Source: a virus. From it: a stretch of 64,000 bases of DNA. The notes under the pieces were generated by a model. That model saw only the letters and a list, made by a program, of their open reading frames with translations, was not told where the DNA came from and searched no databases. This document shows, piece by piece, positions 45,519-52,421 of the stretch (position 1 is its first letter; each line of letters starts with the position of its first letter). Where the stretch lies: the IMG/VR virus record IMGVR_UViG_3300005253_000054, positions 1 through 64,000 of that record; one strand, given 5' to 3'. A program made the translations under genes and the position numbers.

Positions 45519-45719
45519 ATGAAAGTTGGGAAAGAAGTTAGTGTGACTCCAGTATGTCAAGGGTGGTGTAGTGTGTTTGCTACAAATTTAGTTCCATTAA
45601 CGGTATCAATACTTGGTAAAACGAAATTAGAAGAAAAATCACAAGTGGAATTTGCTAAAGAAGTTTATGAATGTTATCGACAGAAACAAGCCAAGGAACG
45701 TGGAGAATTAGAAGATTGA
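45519..45719 (+). CDS. Small hypothetical protein
   Basis: 66 aa from ATG 45519. Beta-rich half with two Cys (VCQGWC), then a helix with CYRQKQAKERGE. Stop overlaps the TTG of the intein-bearing helicase. Confidence 0.45.
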   Translation: MKVGKEVSVTPVCQGWCSVFATNLVPLTVSILGKTKLEEKSQVEFAKEVYECYRQKQAKERGELED

Positions 45720-48700
45720 ATTATCAAACATTCCTCAAAACGAAACGACTACGAACCGATCCTAAAGGATTCGATCCGATATGGTTACCAGATTGGTTAT
45801 TCGGATTCCAAAACCATTTGTGTGATTGGTCGATTCGTTTGGGCAGGTCTGCTTTATACGAGGACTGTGGGCTTGGCAAAGGCAGTCCTCCCAATATGCC
45901 TGTTTTAACTCCCACTGGATTTGTCCCAATAGGCAGTTTGGAAATTGGTGATTCTGTTATAGCTTCTGATGGAAAATCCTATGATGTAAAGGGGGTTTAC
46001 TTCAAACCGAGGCAGGATGTTTTCAGATTATGGTTTAGTGATGGTGTTTCGTTAGTAGTGGATTCTGACCATTTGCATATATGCCGAACAAATAATGACA
46101 GACAAAGAGATAAGCCCTGGCGTGTTTTGAGTACCAAGGAATTGTTGGAATGTAATAATTTGAGATATGGTAGTGATGGGAAGTCTCGTAATTACGATAT
46201 TCCCGTTGTTGGTCCAGTGGAGTTTTCAGTGGATTGCCCCAAAACATTGACACCATATATTATCGGAGCCTTGTTGGGAGACGGTTGTACTTCTCAACCA
46301 AGTATGATTCAATTCACATCTGCGGATTCTGAGATTGTCAACAGGATCAATAATGAATTGTTGGGTGGTGTTGAATTAGTTTATAAAGATCGTTATGAAT
46401 ACCGGTTAAAAACTGGTAAGACTGGTTGTGTGAAACATCCTATTCGTGCTTTTTTGTATCGGATTGGGATGATGGGGAAATTGTCGTATCAAAAAAGTAT
46501 TCCAAAAGAATACCTTATGTCGAAACGAATAGAGGATAGGTTGGATTTGCTTCGTGGTTTGATGGACACGGATGGGTACATAATGAAGTGTGGTACTTCT
46601 CAGTTCTATTCTGTTAGTAGAAAGCTTGCGACAGACGTGGAGTTTTTGGTCAGAAGTCTTGGGGGTGTTCCCACTTTTTCTAGGAAGCAAACCAGTTTGA
46701 ATGGAGAACGAAAGAGGGATTGTTATACTGTTACATTTTCATTAAAGACCTTCAATCCTTTCTTTCTGTCGAGAAAAGCAGAAAGATGGAATCCCGATCC
46801 TAGGGACAATGGTAGGTGGATTGATTCCATTGACTATGAGGGACAATCTGAGACAGTGTGTATTTCTGTTGATTCTCCTGATTCTAGTTATGTCACTAGG
46901 AGTTTCATTGTTACACACAATACTCCCCAGCAATTAGTATGGGCTGAGAATGTGGTTAGACACACAAACAAACCCGTTTTGATTGTGGCACCTTTGGCTG
47001 TATCCGCTCAGTTTGTTACAGAGGCAGAGAAGTTTGGGGTAGGGATACATCGTAGCCGTGATGGTAGATTGAAAAAGGGAATCAATGTTACGAATTACGA
47101 GCGATTACATCATTTTGATCCGAAGAGATTAGCTGGAATATCCTGCGACGAGTGTTTCCCTCCGGGAACGGCAATAGATGTTGTGAACCCCCTTGACAAT
47201 TCTTTAGAAAAGAAGTATATTGAAGATATTGCACGGGGTGACCAAATTCTCAATGCTTCTGGAGTAGATCATGTCAAACATATATGGAAGAGAAAAATCA
47301 ACGGGGCGGTTCAAGTCGGCACCGAAGGATCTAAAATTACCTGTAGCGAAAATCATCCATTCTTTACCTTGCATGGTTGGAAATTCGCACGAGATTTACG
47401 AGCCGGAGATTGTGTCATGGAGACAGCCTCGGCAATGTACTTGGTGCGGGGAGATTTTCAATCCGAAATATGTAGCGAACAAGATGGCGAGATTTTGCGG
47501 AACATCTTGCTCAGCGAAATGGCGGATGAATACACCGGAACACAAAGCAAAAGTACACAATCCAACTGTTGCCAAAAAAAGAGGAAAATCGAAAGCATTA
47601 TGGTTCAGAGGAGGATCAGCAACAGCCAAAAAAGAACTCAAGCGGATAGCCGAGTTGTGTCCGATGAAAGATCCGAAAGTGAGAGCGAAGGTGTCCAAAC
47701 GATTGAAAGAGATAGGACACAAGCCGAGGATTCAGGGAGGGAATGGGAGACCTTTGACGGAGCCGCAACAGATGCTATTAGATTTGTTGGGTGGGGAGTG
47801 GGTTGCAGAATATCCAATTACCCTTGGGAAAAAGATACCCGGATATCCAACGAATTACAAGGTAGATATAGGTTGCCAATTACGAAAAACAGCAATCGAG
47901 TTGGATGGGCATTCTCATTATTCCAGAAAAGAATTGGATCAGAAGAAAGACGAAATGCTGGCTTCGTTAGGGTGGACAGTGTTGAGGTTTTGGAATTGGG
48001 ACATCCTAGATTGGATAAATGGAGGGATGAAAAAGGAGACGTCTATTTCTATGATATTGAAGCAACACGACATCCATCTTTCAGTGTGAATGGTTTGTTA
48101 GTACACAATTCGTCTATCCTAAAAAACTTTGATGGAAAGATGCGAAGAAGAATTACAGATTTTGTATCATCTATCAATTATCGTCTCCTATGCACGGCCA
48201 CCCCAGCACCAAATGACCACATGGAATTGGGAACATCCTCCGAAGCATTGGGTGTAATGAGCCGTGGTCAGATGCTAGGAATGTTTTTCGTTAATGGTGG
48301 GGAAACAACGCAACAATGGTTGCTAAAAGGTCACGCGAAGAAACGATTCTGGCAATGGATGGGAACGTGGGCCAGGGCTATTCGTATGCCATCTGATCTT
48401 GGTTTTGATGACGGGGATTTTATTTTACCAGAGTTGATAATGAAACAGCATCTTGTACCTAGTGAGGTTACGGATGGATTCTTTCCTACTATGGCTGTTA
48501 CGTTGGATGAGCAGAGGGCAGAACGAAAACGGACGATGCAGGCTAGGTGCGAAAAAGTGGCTGAGATTGTTCCTAATGATAGGCCATTTGTTGCTTGGTG
48601 TCATCTGAATCCAGAATCAGATTTGCTGGAGAAGTTGATTCCTGATGCCGTTCAAGTTAGTGGTAGTATGAAAGATGAGGTGAAAGAGGAGCGATTGAAA

Positions 48701-49042
48701 GCGTTTGCTGATGGGCAGATAAGGGTACTGGTTACTAAACCAAAAATTGCTTCATTCGGTCTTAATTGGCAGCACTGTGCTGATATGTCATTCTTCCCGT
48801 CTCATAGTCATGAGCAATTTTATCAGTCTTTACGACGATGTTATCGGTTCCAACAAGAGAATTCAGTAACTTGTAATATCGTTACGAGTGAGGCTGAGAG
48901 TAGAGTTTTGGATAACATGATGCGGAAAGAGCGGCAGGCTGTGGAAATGTATGATGGGATCGTAAGAGAAATGGGTAGGGCTTTGGATGAATCGAATGGG
49001 CAAAAAGGAAACGAGGAAACGAGTATACCGTCATGGTTGTAA
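45716..49042 (+). CDS. SNF2-like helicase interrupted by two inteins
   Basis: 1108-aa precursor, TTG 45716 start overlapping the upstream stop (TTGA) behind TGGAGAATTAGAAGA. Removing both inteins leaves 442 residues: 55 + 77 + 310. The mature Walker A is CGLGK-TPQQLVWAE and motif II is SCDE-SSILKNFDG, each cut by an intein. Further motifs are CTATPAPND (III), VAWCHLNPESDLLEKL (IV), ASFGLNWQHC (V) and FYQSLRRCYRFQQ (VI). Neither ATPase motif is complete without splicing, so activity depends on both excisions. The methyltransferase at 49033 overlaps the 3' end. Confidence 0.85.
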   Translation: MNYQTFLKTKRLRTDPKGFDPIWLPDWLFGFQNHLCDWSIRLGRSALYEDCGLGKGSPPNMPVLTPTGFVPIGSLEIGDSVIASDGKSYDVKGVYFKPRQDVFRLWFSDGVSLVVDSDHLHICRTNNDRQRDKPWRVLSTKELLECNNLRYGSDGKSRNYDIPVVGPVEFSVDCPKTLTPYIIGALLGDGCTSQPSMIQFTSADSEIVNRINNELLGGVELVYKDRYEYRLKTGKTGCVKHPIRAFLYRIGMMGKLSYQKSIPKEYLMSKRIEDRLDLLRGLMDTDGYIMKCGTSQFYSVSRKLATDVEFLVRSLGGVPTFSRKQTSLNGERKRDCYTVTFSLKTFNPFFLSRKAERWNPDPRDNGRWIDSIDYEGQSETVCISVDSPDSSYVTRSFIVTHNTPQQLVWAENVVRHTNKPVLIVAPLAVSAQFVTEAEKFGVGIHRSRDGRLKKGINVTNYERLHHFDPKRLAGISCDECFPPGTAIDVVNPLDNSLEKKYIEDIARGDQILNASGVDHVKHIWKRKINGAVQVGTEGSKITCSENHPFFTLHGWKFARDLRAGDCVMETASAMYLVRGDFQSEICSEQDGEILRNILLSEMADEYTGTQSKSTQSNCCQKKRKIESIMVQRRISNSQKRTQADSRVVSDERSESESEGVQTIERDRTQAEDSGREWETFDGAATDAIRFVGWGVGCRISNYPWEKDTRISNELQGRYRLPITKNSNRVGWAFSLFQKRIGSEERRNAGFVRVDSVEVLELGHPRLDKWRDEKGDVYFYDIEATRHPSFSVNGLLVHNSSILKNFDGKMRRRITDFVSSINYRLLCTATPAPNDHMELGTSSEALGVMSRGQMLGMFFVNGGETTQQWLLKGHAKKRFWQWMGTWARAIRMPSDLGFDDGDFILPELIMKQHLVPSEVTDGFFPTMAVTLDEQRAERKRTMQARCEKVAEIVPNDRPFVAWCHLNPESDLLEKLIPDAVQVSGSMKDEVKEERLKAFADGQIRVLVTKPKIASFGLNWQHCADMSFFPSHSHEQFYQSLRRCYRFQQENSVTCNIVTSEAESRVLDNMMRKERQAVEMYDGIVREMGRALDESNGQKGNEETSIPSWL
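45881..46921 (+). mobile_element. Intein 1: LAGLIDADG type, class-3-like, in Walker A
   Basis: 347 aa. The conserved GLGK/T Walker A and alignment with the other two inteins place residue 1 at Gly (GSPPNMPVLTP) rather than Cys or Ser; starting at Ser would leave GLGKGT. It ends FIVTHN before Thr. The in-frame endonuclease motifs are IIGALLGDG and LLRGLMDTDGYI. A Trp in PWRVLSTKEL, Cys in TVCISVDSPD and Thr in VTHN match the W-C-T signature of class 3 inteins, which do not need a nucleophile at position 1. Confidence 0.85.
47153..48109 (+). mobile_element. Intein 2 in helicase motif II, with endonuclease in another frame
   Basis: 319 aa from Cys (CFPPGTAIDVV) to LLVHN before Ser. Splicing blocks: A at the start, B ITCSENHPFFTLHGWKFA at about 64-81, F VYFYDIEATRHPSFSV and G GLLVHN. 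Between B and F the intein frame is open but has no recognisable domain; the same DNA in the +1 frame encodes a Vsr/DUF559-like nuclease (47271-48089). Class 1 by its Cys1. Confidence 0.85.
47271..48089 (+). CDS. Vsr/DUF559-like homing endonuclease nested in intein 2 (+1 frame)
   Basis: 272 aa. ATG 47271 has GGAG at 47261-47264 with a six-base spacer; GTG 47412 is an alternative. The domain-like part starts near residue 50 with CTWCGEIFNPKYVANKMARF and CGTSC (zinc finger), then basic helices. YKVDIGCQLRKTAIELDGHS, HYSRKELDQKKDEMLASLGW and TVLRFWN are the PD-(D/E)XK-derived core of Vsr/DUF559 nucleases (D...ELDGxxH). These features are absent from the intein frame, so this is the true coding frame for the middle of the element. 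Confidence 0.8.
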   Translation: MSNIYGREKSTGRFKSAPKDLKLPVAKIIHSLPCMVGNSHEIYEPEIVSWRQPRQCTWCGEIFNPKYVANKMARFCGTSCSAKWRMNTPEHKAKVHNPTVAKKRGKSKALWFRGGSATAKKELKRIAELCPMKDPKVRAKVSKRLKEIGHKPRIQGGNGRPLTEPQQMLLDLLGGEWVAEYPITLGKKIPGYPTNYKVDIGCQLRKTAIELDGHSHYSRKELDQKKDEMLASLGWTVLRFWNWDILDWINGGMKKETSISMILKQHDIHLSV

Positions 49043-50564: not shown

Positions 50565-50579
50565 CCGAAAGGATTGACG

Positions 50580-52421
50580 ATGCCCCCAGAACTCTATCGT
50601 AAATACCGACCTACCAAATTCTCAGAGGTATTAGGTCAACCTGAAGCAATCAAGACCCTAAACGATTGGGGCAAGCAAAAAGCGATACCCCACTTCCTGC
50701 TATTCACAGGCCCTAGTGGGTGTTTGCGTGGGGATACGAAGATATTTGATCCGGTGGATTCTAGTGATTTGTCTATTCGGGAGCGTTGGAGGATTGGTCA
50801 TCCTTTCCATGTTTTGTCGAGGAACGAGGATAACAGGCTGGTAGTGGCGGAAGCGATGCCACCGGTCCGCCATTCTCCAGATTGGATGTATCGTGTAAAA
50901 ACTTCTGAATCGCTTTTTTACGTAACGTCCGAACACCAGTTCCTCGTTGACACTGGTGAGTACCTTTCATTGAGGGAACTTTACGCTCGGAGATTCGACG
51001 GAGTCCATCTTCTGACCACTTGGGACATTTCCCAAGCAATTCAACACCAAGATGCTCACCATTGTTTGCAAACAAGATTAGATTATTCGGATCGTTATCG
51101 GTCTTATCCCCGTTTTTATGATGAACGACTTCCGATTCAGTCAGATATCGATTCAAAATACGCTCAAGCACCAAACGATGTTCTAGGACGTAACCGTTTC
51201 TCGCATTTGGATGTTTTGGCATCCGTATCAAAACATAACCATCCCCGTCAATTACACGACCACCTTTCCAGGCAGGATTATCGACACCACGTTGGAAAGA
51301 ATACTGTGGACGAATTTGGGTGTTTGAACGTTTCAACGATTCACGAACGTTTTGACGTTTTGTCTTCAGACGTTTTGCGATTTGTTTCTGAGTCCAACCG
51401 TCTTGATACATGCCCGAAACTAACTTGTCCCGTTCTGGAGTCCAAATACGACGCCTGTGTGGATAGAAGCCTTTTGGCATTGTCTTCTCCTTGTTTTGAT
51501 AGGACCATATTCTCTAGTACCATTATACAAGATATCTCCCAAACAAGCAAGCAGCCCTACTATGATTTTCATGTTCCTATTTACGAGAATTATTGGGCTG
51601 GTGGTTTGATTCATCATAATTGTGGCAAAACGACTTTAGCCCGAATTCTTCGGAAGAAACTCAAGTGTTCCGACCACGATTTTATAGAGGTGAATGCCGC
51701 CGAGACAAACGGGATTGATATGGTGCGGTCTATCGCGAGGGTAATGGGCCTTGCACCGATGATGGGCAGGTGTAGGGTGTGGCTCATAGATGAGGCTGCT
51801 AGGCTCACTAAGGATGCTCAGAGTGCTTTCCTCAAGATGCTGGAGGATACGCCCGAACACGTCTATTTTATGCTGGCGACAACTGATCCTCAGAAGTTAC
51901 TACCCACGATTATGACAAGGGCATCTGAGATTAAGGTAAAGGCTTTATCTTCTAAGGATATGACGGATTTGGTTAGAGGCGTACGTCATCAAGAGGAGCA
52001 AGCCAATTCTGAAGAGGATTTGGTTGGAATATCCGATGACGTTTGTGATAAAATTATTGACATAGCAGACGGATCGGCAAGGAAAGCATTGGTCCTATTG
52101 CATCAAGTGATTGGTGAAGGGGACGAGGAGAAGCAGTTAGCGGTCTTGCAACAGGCAGATAGCAAGCAACAGGCAATTGAGATTTGCCGATTGCTAATGA
52201 AAGCGAATACATCGTGGAAGCAGATGGCTAAGCTGCTTAGAGCCGTTGACGACGAGCCGGAGGGTATCAGGCGGCTGATGTTGGCTTATATGACCAAGGT
52301 AGGGCTGAGTGGTAATAAGAGGGCCATCGTGTGTCTTGAGGCGTTTGAGGAGCCTTATTTCAATACTGGCAGGGCAGGATTGGTTTTGTCCTGTTGGAAT
52401 GTAATCAATGGAGGTGGATGA
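50580..52421 (+). CDS. Clamp loader ATPase (DnaX/RFC-like) with an intein
   Basis: 613-aa precursor from ATG 50580; TTG 50574 is possible. After removal of the 300-aa intein the protein is 313 residues. N-extein: YRKYRPTKFSEVLGQ, the typical clamp loader start. Walker A is GPSG-CGKTT, cut by the intein. Then VWLIDEAARLTKDAQSAFL (Walker B), LEDTP and FMLATTDPQKLLPTIMTRA (sensor 1 and the SRC-like region). It loads the clamp of 39993 onto primed DNA. Without splicing the P-loop is destroyed. Confidence 0.9.
   Translation: MPPELYRKYRPTKFSEVLGQPEAIKTLNDWGKQKAIPHFLLFTGPSGCLRGDTKIFDPVDSSDLSIRERWRIGHPFHVLSRNEDNRLVVAEAMPPVRHSPDWMYRVKTSESLFYVTSEHQFLVDTGEYLSLRELYARRFDGVHLLTTWDISQAIQHQDAHHCLQTRLDYSDRYRSYPRFYDERLPIQSDIDSKYAQAPNDVLGRNRFSHLDVLASVSKHNHPRQLHDHLSRQDYRHHVGKNTVDEFGCLNVSTIHERFDVLSSDVLRFVSESNRLDTCPKLTCPVLESKYDACVDRSLLALSSPCFDRTIFSSTIIQDISQTSKQPYYDFHVPIYENYWAGGLIHHNCGKTTLARILRKKLKCSDHDFIEVNAAETNGIDMVRSIARVMGLAPMMGRCRVWLIDEAARLTKDAQSAFLKMLEDTPEHVYFMLATTDPQKLLPTIMTRASEIKVKALSSKDMTDLVRGVRHQEEQANSEEDLVGISDDVCDKIIDIADGSARKALVLLHQVIGEGDEEKQLAVLQQADSKQQAIEICRLLMKANTSWKQMAKLLRAVDDEPEGIRRLMLAYMTKVGLSGNKRAIVCLEAFEEPYFNTGRAGLVLSCWNVINGGG
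50773..51480 (-). CDS. HNH homing endonuclease antisense within intein 3
   Basis: 235 aa on the minus strand, the only minus-strand gene supported. ATG at 51480 has AAGGAG about eight bases upstream. An N-terminal helix-turn-helix (DGWTQKQIAKRLKTKRQNV) is followed by GYVLIRMPKHPNARNGYVLE and ESEVVHHKNGDKTDNDPNN, a complete HNH_3-type core ending LILFANNGEH. The C-terminal tail reads the complement of intein block A/B codons and may be dispensable. It would cut intein-free alleles so that the element spreads by repair. Confidence 0.85.
   Translation of the reverse strand: MPKGFYPHRRRIWTPERDKLVSGMYQDGWTQKQIAKRLKTKRQNVRESLKRSNTQIRPQYSFQRGVDNPAWKGGRVIDGDGYVLIRMPKHPNARNGYVLEHRLVLERILNRYLTESEVVHHKNGDKTDNDPNNLILFANNGEHLGVELLGKCPKWSEDGLRRISERKVPSMKGTHQCQRGTGVRTLRKKAIQKFLHDTSNLENGGPVASLPPLPACYPRSSTKHGKDDQSSNAPE
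51522..51550 (-). promoter_or_regulatory. Minus-strand promoter for the nested HNH gene
   Basis: On the minus strand: TTGCTT (51550-51545), a 17-base spacer, and a perfect TATAAT (51527-51522), about 40 bases before the ATG at 51480. The plus strand here codes for the intein's C-terminal part. Confidence 0.55.

Follow-up and report, generated by a model that had tools for sequence, protein, structure and literature searches.

The window, i.e. the whole 64-kb stretch of DNA analysed here, is the start of a virus record of 100,283 bases and contains a helicase gene with two inteins. Textbook inteins have their endonuclease in frame, and splicing and homing are combined in one polypeptide. The second intein of this helicase has a long ORF in its +1 frame, which raises the question of what this ORF encodes, how it is expressed and what it does for the intein. 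The locus is very probably a mobile intein, with a homing endonuclease encoded by a gene of its own that is overprinted at +1 and translated by internal initiation. Sequence-based analysis establishes that both frames code, that the nuclease frame is under selection and that stops are excluded from the intein frame; it also establishes the folds, the empty, mini and full alleles and the horizontal movement.

The mechanism that we infer includes protein splicing, initiation at an internal start and cutting of the empty site. Translation of the host frame would result in a single helicase precursor. Intein 2, with two folded splicing halves and a disordered tether, would excise itself and leave the helicase joined across motif II. 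Ribosomes starting at the internal Shine-Dalgarno sequence and ATG 47271 would produce a zinc-finger DUF559/EDxHD nuclease, whose presumed target is the intein-less Walker B (motif II) site in the helicase genes of co-infecting phages. Repair of the cut site would then copy the whole intein-nuclease unit.

The intein and the nuclease in its +1 frame

The features of the helicase locus are as follows.

45671..49042, + strand: host gene, SNF2-like superfamily 2 helicase of 1123 aa with two inteins (ORF; Pfam Helicase_C, Intein_splicing)
45884..46921 (N-terminal boundary approximate), + strand: intein 1, at Walker A, with an in-frame LAGLIDADG endonuclease (LAGLIDADG_3, 7.7e-6)
47153..48109, + strand: intein 2, 319 aa, at motif II, DE^C...HN^SS (Intein_splicing, 4e-12; splicing fold)
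47261..47264, + strand: Shine-Dalgarno-like GGAG with a 6-nt spacer to the nested ATG (sequence)
47271..48089, + strand: nested +1-frame nuclease gene, 272 aa, with N-terminal extension, zinc finger, helical linker and DUF559 nuclease (DUF559, 2.8e-13; AF2 model; codon-phase switch)
47336..47368, + strand: intein block B, ITCSENHPFFT, coding in two frames (both frames constrained in the window subclade, the intein frame only in its siblings)
47436..47510, + strand: nuclease zinc finger, CTWC ... CGTSC (Cys conserved 90-100% in 68 nucleases; weak matches to FCS-type zinc fingers)
47856..47996, + strand: nuclease catalytic core, YKVDIG ... IELDGHSH ... DQKK ... GWTVLRFWN (invariant residues; aligns with 3hrl and I-Bth0305I)
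48038..48109, + strand: intein blocks F and G, with the end of the nuclease gene inside F (coordinates)

Intein 2 is a single open frame of 319 codons. Its +1 ORF has 272 codons (47271-48089), covers block B and stops within block F. Re-derivation of the ORFs returned exactly the coordinates of the original prediction for the intein and the nested ORF, including the overlap that it described with block B (47336-47368) and with block F. The intein has the features of class 1, namely C1, a block-B His, a C-terminal Asn and HN^S or HN^C junctions. C1, His68 of block B and Asn319 are invariant in 84 inteins, and the Pfam profile Intein_splicing matches all 84 of these host-frame inteins. Removal of the intein restores the host motif DE-S/C. 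A group I intron or another known RNA element was rejected as the carrier, since there is no Rfam match between 45 and 53 kb. The N-terminal residue of intein 1, which is Gly or Ser and not Cys, looks unusual.

The DUF559 profile matches each of the 68 +1 ORFs compared, and D199, D212, H216 and D223 are invariant in these 68 sequences. A profile search with the nuclease results in E-values of 3.8e-15 for 3hrl and 0.008 for 3r3p (I-Bth0305I). The AF2 model of the window nuclease has a mean pLDDT of 85.7, with values above 90 for the zinc finger, the helical linker and the core and low confidence for the first ~50 residues. The nearest solved folds in Foldseek are 3hrl, a DUF559 protein, and I-Bth0305I, an EDxHD homing enzyme, followed by Vsr; the E-values are weak, although 3hrl and I-Bth0305I have high probabilities. 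The nuclease had been called Vsr-like and DUF559-like. The DUF559 match stands, but the enzyme is better called DUF559/EDxHD because Vsr ranks after the other two folds.

The AlphaFold model of the host frame has both splicing halves at a pLDDT above 96 and a linker of ~150 residues near 45, and its nearest fold is the gp41-1 intein. The model indicates that the linker in the intein frame is a disordered tether. Since the nuclease folds and the linker does not, one frame of this DNA specifies a folded enzyme and the other a tether. One stretch of DNA would thus hold a splicing element in one frame and the enzyme for its mobility in the other, with an overlap that can include a catalytic intein block. 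In the excised inteins a long disordered tether would take the place of the endonuclease domain, which may serve engineering.

Relatives and selection on the two frames

Two samples of relatives were collected by profile scans. The first, a scan of IMG/VR by the nuclease profile that used no information on inteins, contains 80 viral loci; the nuclease is within a long open host frame in 79 of them, with an offset of +1 in all. The second is another profile scan of 80 loci, some of them on contigs also present in the first. In 75 of these a single open frame contains both the N and the C half of the intein, with the nuclease at +1. The remainder are two nested copies cut by the contig end and three free-standing genes. 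The two halves share one open frame in 98 loci, as they do in 75/80 of the second sample.

After removal of identical nuclease cores, and with distant DUF559 proteins counted apart, the distinct copies number 145 nested, 4 free-standing and 1 in frame. The 145 nested relatives come from IMG/VR, from Vibrio, Corynebacterium and Pseudomonas phages and from genome contigs; all are at +1 and none is at +2. The claim that out-of-frame carriage is a recurrent strategy and not an accident thus has strong support. The insertion site is nearly always immediately after the DE of Walker B/motif II. Pfam assigns most C-exteins to helicases and some to clamp-loader-like ATPases or, in single cases, to other ATPases; in the metagenomic relative L001 the nested unit is in a clamp-loader gene at DE^CH. 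In plasmids, neither frame had a match.

Sequenced phages contribute 40 records with the nuclease, mostly beneath genes annotated as helicases. Eight phage regions from Vibrio, Corynebacterium phi673 and Pseudomonas MR14 were examined whole, and in 8/8 the nuclease is at +1 in an intein at DE^CHH. The nested genes in such phages (Vibrio CP-T1, Corynebacterium phi673, Pseudomonas MR14) are unannotated under the label 'helicase' and are missed by annotation pipelines. The single in-frame copy, L102, is on an archaeal Methanosuratincola contig (1322-4000), where the intein of a UvrD helicase occupies the same DE^C position and has DUF559 in frame. By its sequence, L102 appears to be an in-frame counterpart of the nested form.

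The four free-standing copies are L029, L294, L298 and L324, with no intein halves detected within 2.5 kb. In L029 five stops interrupt what was the intein frame, and the nuclease core is 74% identical to that of the nested L024, which points to a recent escape of L029 from the nested state. The other three have no long open frame across the nuclease. The free copies are dispersed among the nested ones in a tree that is weakly resolved.

Codon-position differences were counted in 16 disjoint pairs of relatives. Differences in the exteins and the N region of the intein are concentrated at host codon position 3, whereas those in the overlap are concentrated at host position 1, which is position 3 of the nuclease. 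The differences per codon at host positions 1, 2 and 3 are 0.36, 0.17 and 0.15 in the overlap vs 0.23, 0.16 and 0.51 in the extein. The codon phase thus switches in the overlap: the nuclease protein is conserved, and the linker in the intein frame is left to drift. The substitution pattern indicates that the nested nuclease is under purifying selection. Intein-frame changes are also somewhat more conservative than a codon-usage null.

Stops are excluded from the intein frame. When the nuclease protein was held fixed and its codons recoded synonymously at the host's own usage, 1013 intein-frame stops were expected in 86 non-redundant loci and none was observed. Stops in the third frame of these loci number 1406 vs 999 expected, so there is no general avoidance of stops. 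The window copy alone (225 codons) has no intein-frame stop vs 19.8 expected. In the reverse test, with the intein-frame protein fixed, the nuclease frame has 0 stops vs 380 expected. Four-fold nuclease codons before AA, AG or GA, at which a T would produce a stop in the intein frame, have T in 0/2103 cases, compared with 1326/5206 elsewhere. The codon-position comparison proposed with the original prediction thus places the nuclease frame under purifying selection, with an intein frame maintained without stops. Interruption of the +1 frame by stops would speak against the nested gene, but the nested relatives have this frame open. The 145 distinct nested sequences are a large natural collection of overlapping genes for measurements of dual-coding constraint.

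Mobility and expression of the nuclease

One helicase gene occurs in closely related Vibrio phages as empty, mini-intein and full alleles. L125 has no intein, L126 and L129 have a mini-intein of 150 residues without a long +1 ORF, and L004, L005 and L006 have the full intein. The inteins of L004 and L005 are 95.8% identical and the gene flanks 77-78%. This excess of intein identity over flank identity is the footprint that recent horizontal homing predicts.

The nuclease could be under selection for a role other than homing, such as restriction or the exclusion of rival phages, and merely be sheltered in the intein. DUF559 proteins are found in many contexts, and the four free-standing relatives have no detected intein, as this explanation would predict. 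However, in nearly all hosts the insertion falls at one site, directly behind the DE of motif II; intein identity exceeds flank identity, empty and mini alleles occur, and the closest characterised folds include the homing enzyme I-Bth0305I. A function unrelated to homing is therefore improbable.

The start of the nested gene bears on how the nuclease is made. In most relatives the gene begins just ahead of the zinc finger, 3' of block B, and by this comparison GTG 47412 was considered as the true start in the window. Codon-position differences in the window subclade reversed this assignment. The window and five relatives share a STGRF motif and a nuclease frame that extends upstream through block B. 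Over the block B stretch the three codon positions are about equally constrained in this subclade, while the siblings have ordinary third-position variation; the position-3 share is 0.32 in the subclade vs 0.49 in the siblings. Six loci drawn at random from the fifteen had as low a share in 1 of 2000 draws, and no such contrast between subclade and siblings is seen in an upstream control region. The dual constraint supports the start first proposed, ATG 47271 preceded by GGAG. Therefore, one catalytic intein block codes in both frames in the window subclade.

Pairing with the anti-Shine-Dalgarno sequence at start codons before the zinc finger is -5.8 kcal/mol vs -3.4 +/- 0.25 kcal/mol at matched control positions, and 0/200 shuffles were equally low. 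An ATG with an upstream GGAG, GAGG or AGGA core is present in only 35/79 loci (12 expected); the others would need weaker starts or GTG/TTG starts. The pairing at the start codons favours internal initiation of the nuclease.

The main mechanistic alternative is programmed +1 ribosomal frameshifting, by which the nuclease would be made as part of the intein and not as an independent protein. The fixed +1 relation of the frames in every nested case is consistent with this mechanism, as is the in-frame fusion of intein and DUF559 in the archaeal contig L102. It does not account for start codons ahead of the zinc finger with pairing above that of the controls. The nuclease's own stop also precedes the end of the intein, and block G would be missing from a shifted product. 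The intein frame is open from end to end of the overlap, a condition for translating the precursor directly. Frameshifting is for these reasons quite improbable, and independent translation of an overprinted homing endonuclease is the preferred reading.

Fractured inteins and other out-of-frame nucleases

Vsr-type nucleases occur as free-standing genes inside fractured split-intein loci. The nested form could accordingly be a transition toward a fractured intein with a free-standing nuclease, and the original prediction placed it before or instead of fracture. Free-standing copies do exist and L029 appears to have escaped recently, as a transition would predict. However, a fractured intein with its halves in separate ORFs around a DUF559 nuclease was found in 0/80 loci of the second sample, and no intein halves were detected within 2.5 kb of the free-standing copies. 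The gp41-1-type fractured loci resemble intein 2 in combining an intein with a separately translated nuclease gene; they differ in that two genes, one on either side of a non-overlapping ORF, encode the intein, whereas intein 2 is one open frame with an overlapping nuclease. In the gp41-1-type loci L201-L250 the ORF between the halves has a NUMOD3 motif and is GIY-YIG-like by eye. The comparison with fractured loci that had been suggested was made for these gp41-1-type loci: they carry a different ORF and were rejected as close kin of the nested form. 'Instead of fracture' fits the data better, and a step before fracture is unsupported, with no fractured relative around this nuclease among the sampled loci; the transition is very unlikely. 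The nested form provides a test of how a homing nuclease can be uncoupled from its carrier with the intein unbroken.

A chance ORF, a sequencing frameshift or an assembly artefact has only the prior caution about overlapping ORFs in its favour and can practically be dismissed, since complete phage genomes sequenced by several laboratories and 145 distinct nested copies have the same arrangement, and since the stop, codon-phase and four-fold-site tests speak for selection; the frameshift error considered with the original prediction is thus not the cause.

Canonical endonuclease inteins (PI-SceI type, and intein 1) resemble intein 2 in several respects: they have splicing blocks A, B, F and G with a nuclease located between B and F, they interrupt a conserved motif, and they occur as presence/absence alleles. 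Their nuclease is in frame and made with the intein, whereas that of intein 2 is a separate +1-frame protein. I-Bth0305I represents a family of homing enzymes of group I introns, which are spliced as RNA (PMC3943268). The nested nuclease core matches I-Bth0305I (3r3p) and 3hrl in profile and fold, but its carrier is a protein-spliced intein and not a group I intron.

A precedent is the ShiLan domain and the Pacc40 insertion in phage DNA methylases, which have an HNH endonuclease out of frame (Arsenault et al. 2025, PMC11855218). These insertions have no detectable splicing domain, and the frame of the interrupted gene is open (PMC11855218). Intein 2 likewise has a homing-type endonuclease out of frame, at +1, in an open host frame with 0 stops; it differs in having a full splicing domain and a DUF559 nuclease in place of HNH. 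In the open-licence literature that was searched no intact intein with an overlapping endonuclease gene was found, and out-of-frame endonucleases were found only in the ShiLan/Pacc40 work. Inteins, DUF559/EDxHD nucleases and the out-of-frame endonucleases of ShiLan are known; their combination in an intact intein appears to be new within that literature.

A second out-of-frame nuclease is present in the window.

50574-52421, + strand: clamp-loader gene, DNA pol III delta'-like (ORF)
50721..51620, + strand: clamp-loader intein, at Walker A, C...HHN^CGKTT (ORF and motifs; Intein_splicing, 0.0023)
50773..51480, - strand: HNH endonuclease, 235 aa, antisense in the clamp-loader intein (HNH_3, 5.4e-6; antisense relatives)

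Two inteins with out-of-frame nucleases had been predicted in this genome. Both nucleases are out of frame, but the second is an antisense HNH (50773-51480). An HNH antisense to an intein-like insert is also found in three viral relatives, the clamp loader L130 and the terminases L132 and L141. In all three the HNH is in the identical relative frame, with 0 host-frame stops vs 6-9 expected, and L130 has an Intein_splicing match of 2e-5. The DNA methylase of L145 (1369-4824) has an intein-like insert, CLSEDTEILT...VTGN^S, with an HNH gene at +1. This insert was identified by its end motifs alone, with no match to the Pfam intein profile, and L145 is possibly a bridge from true inteins to ShiLan-type insertions.

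Since a +1 DUF559, an antisense HNH and a +1 HNH (L145) are all found, out-of-frame carriage arose more than once. Overprinted inteins probably form a separate and widespread class, either sense at +1 (DUF559, HNH) or antisense (HNH), with at least three origins, and are the normal form for phage inteins that carry DUF559. If so, the splicing domain would be freed from the nuclease fold, the nuclease would be under its own expression control and its loss by deletion would be cheap. Within 6 kb, this phage has three modes of carriage of an intein nuclease: in frame, at +1 and antisense.
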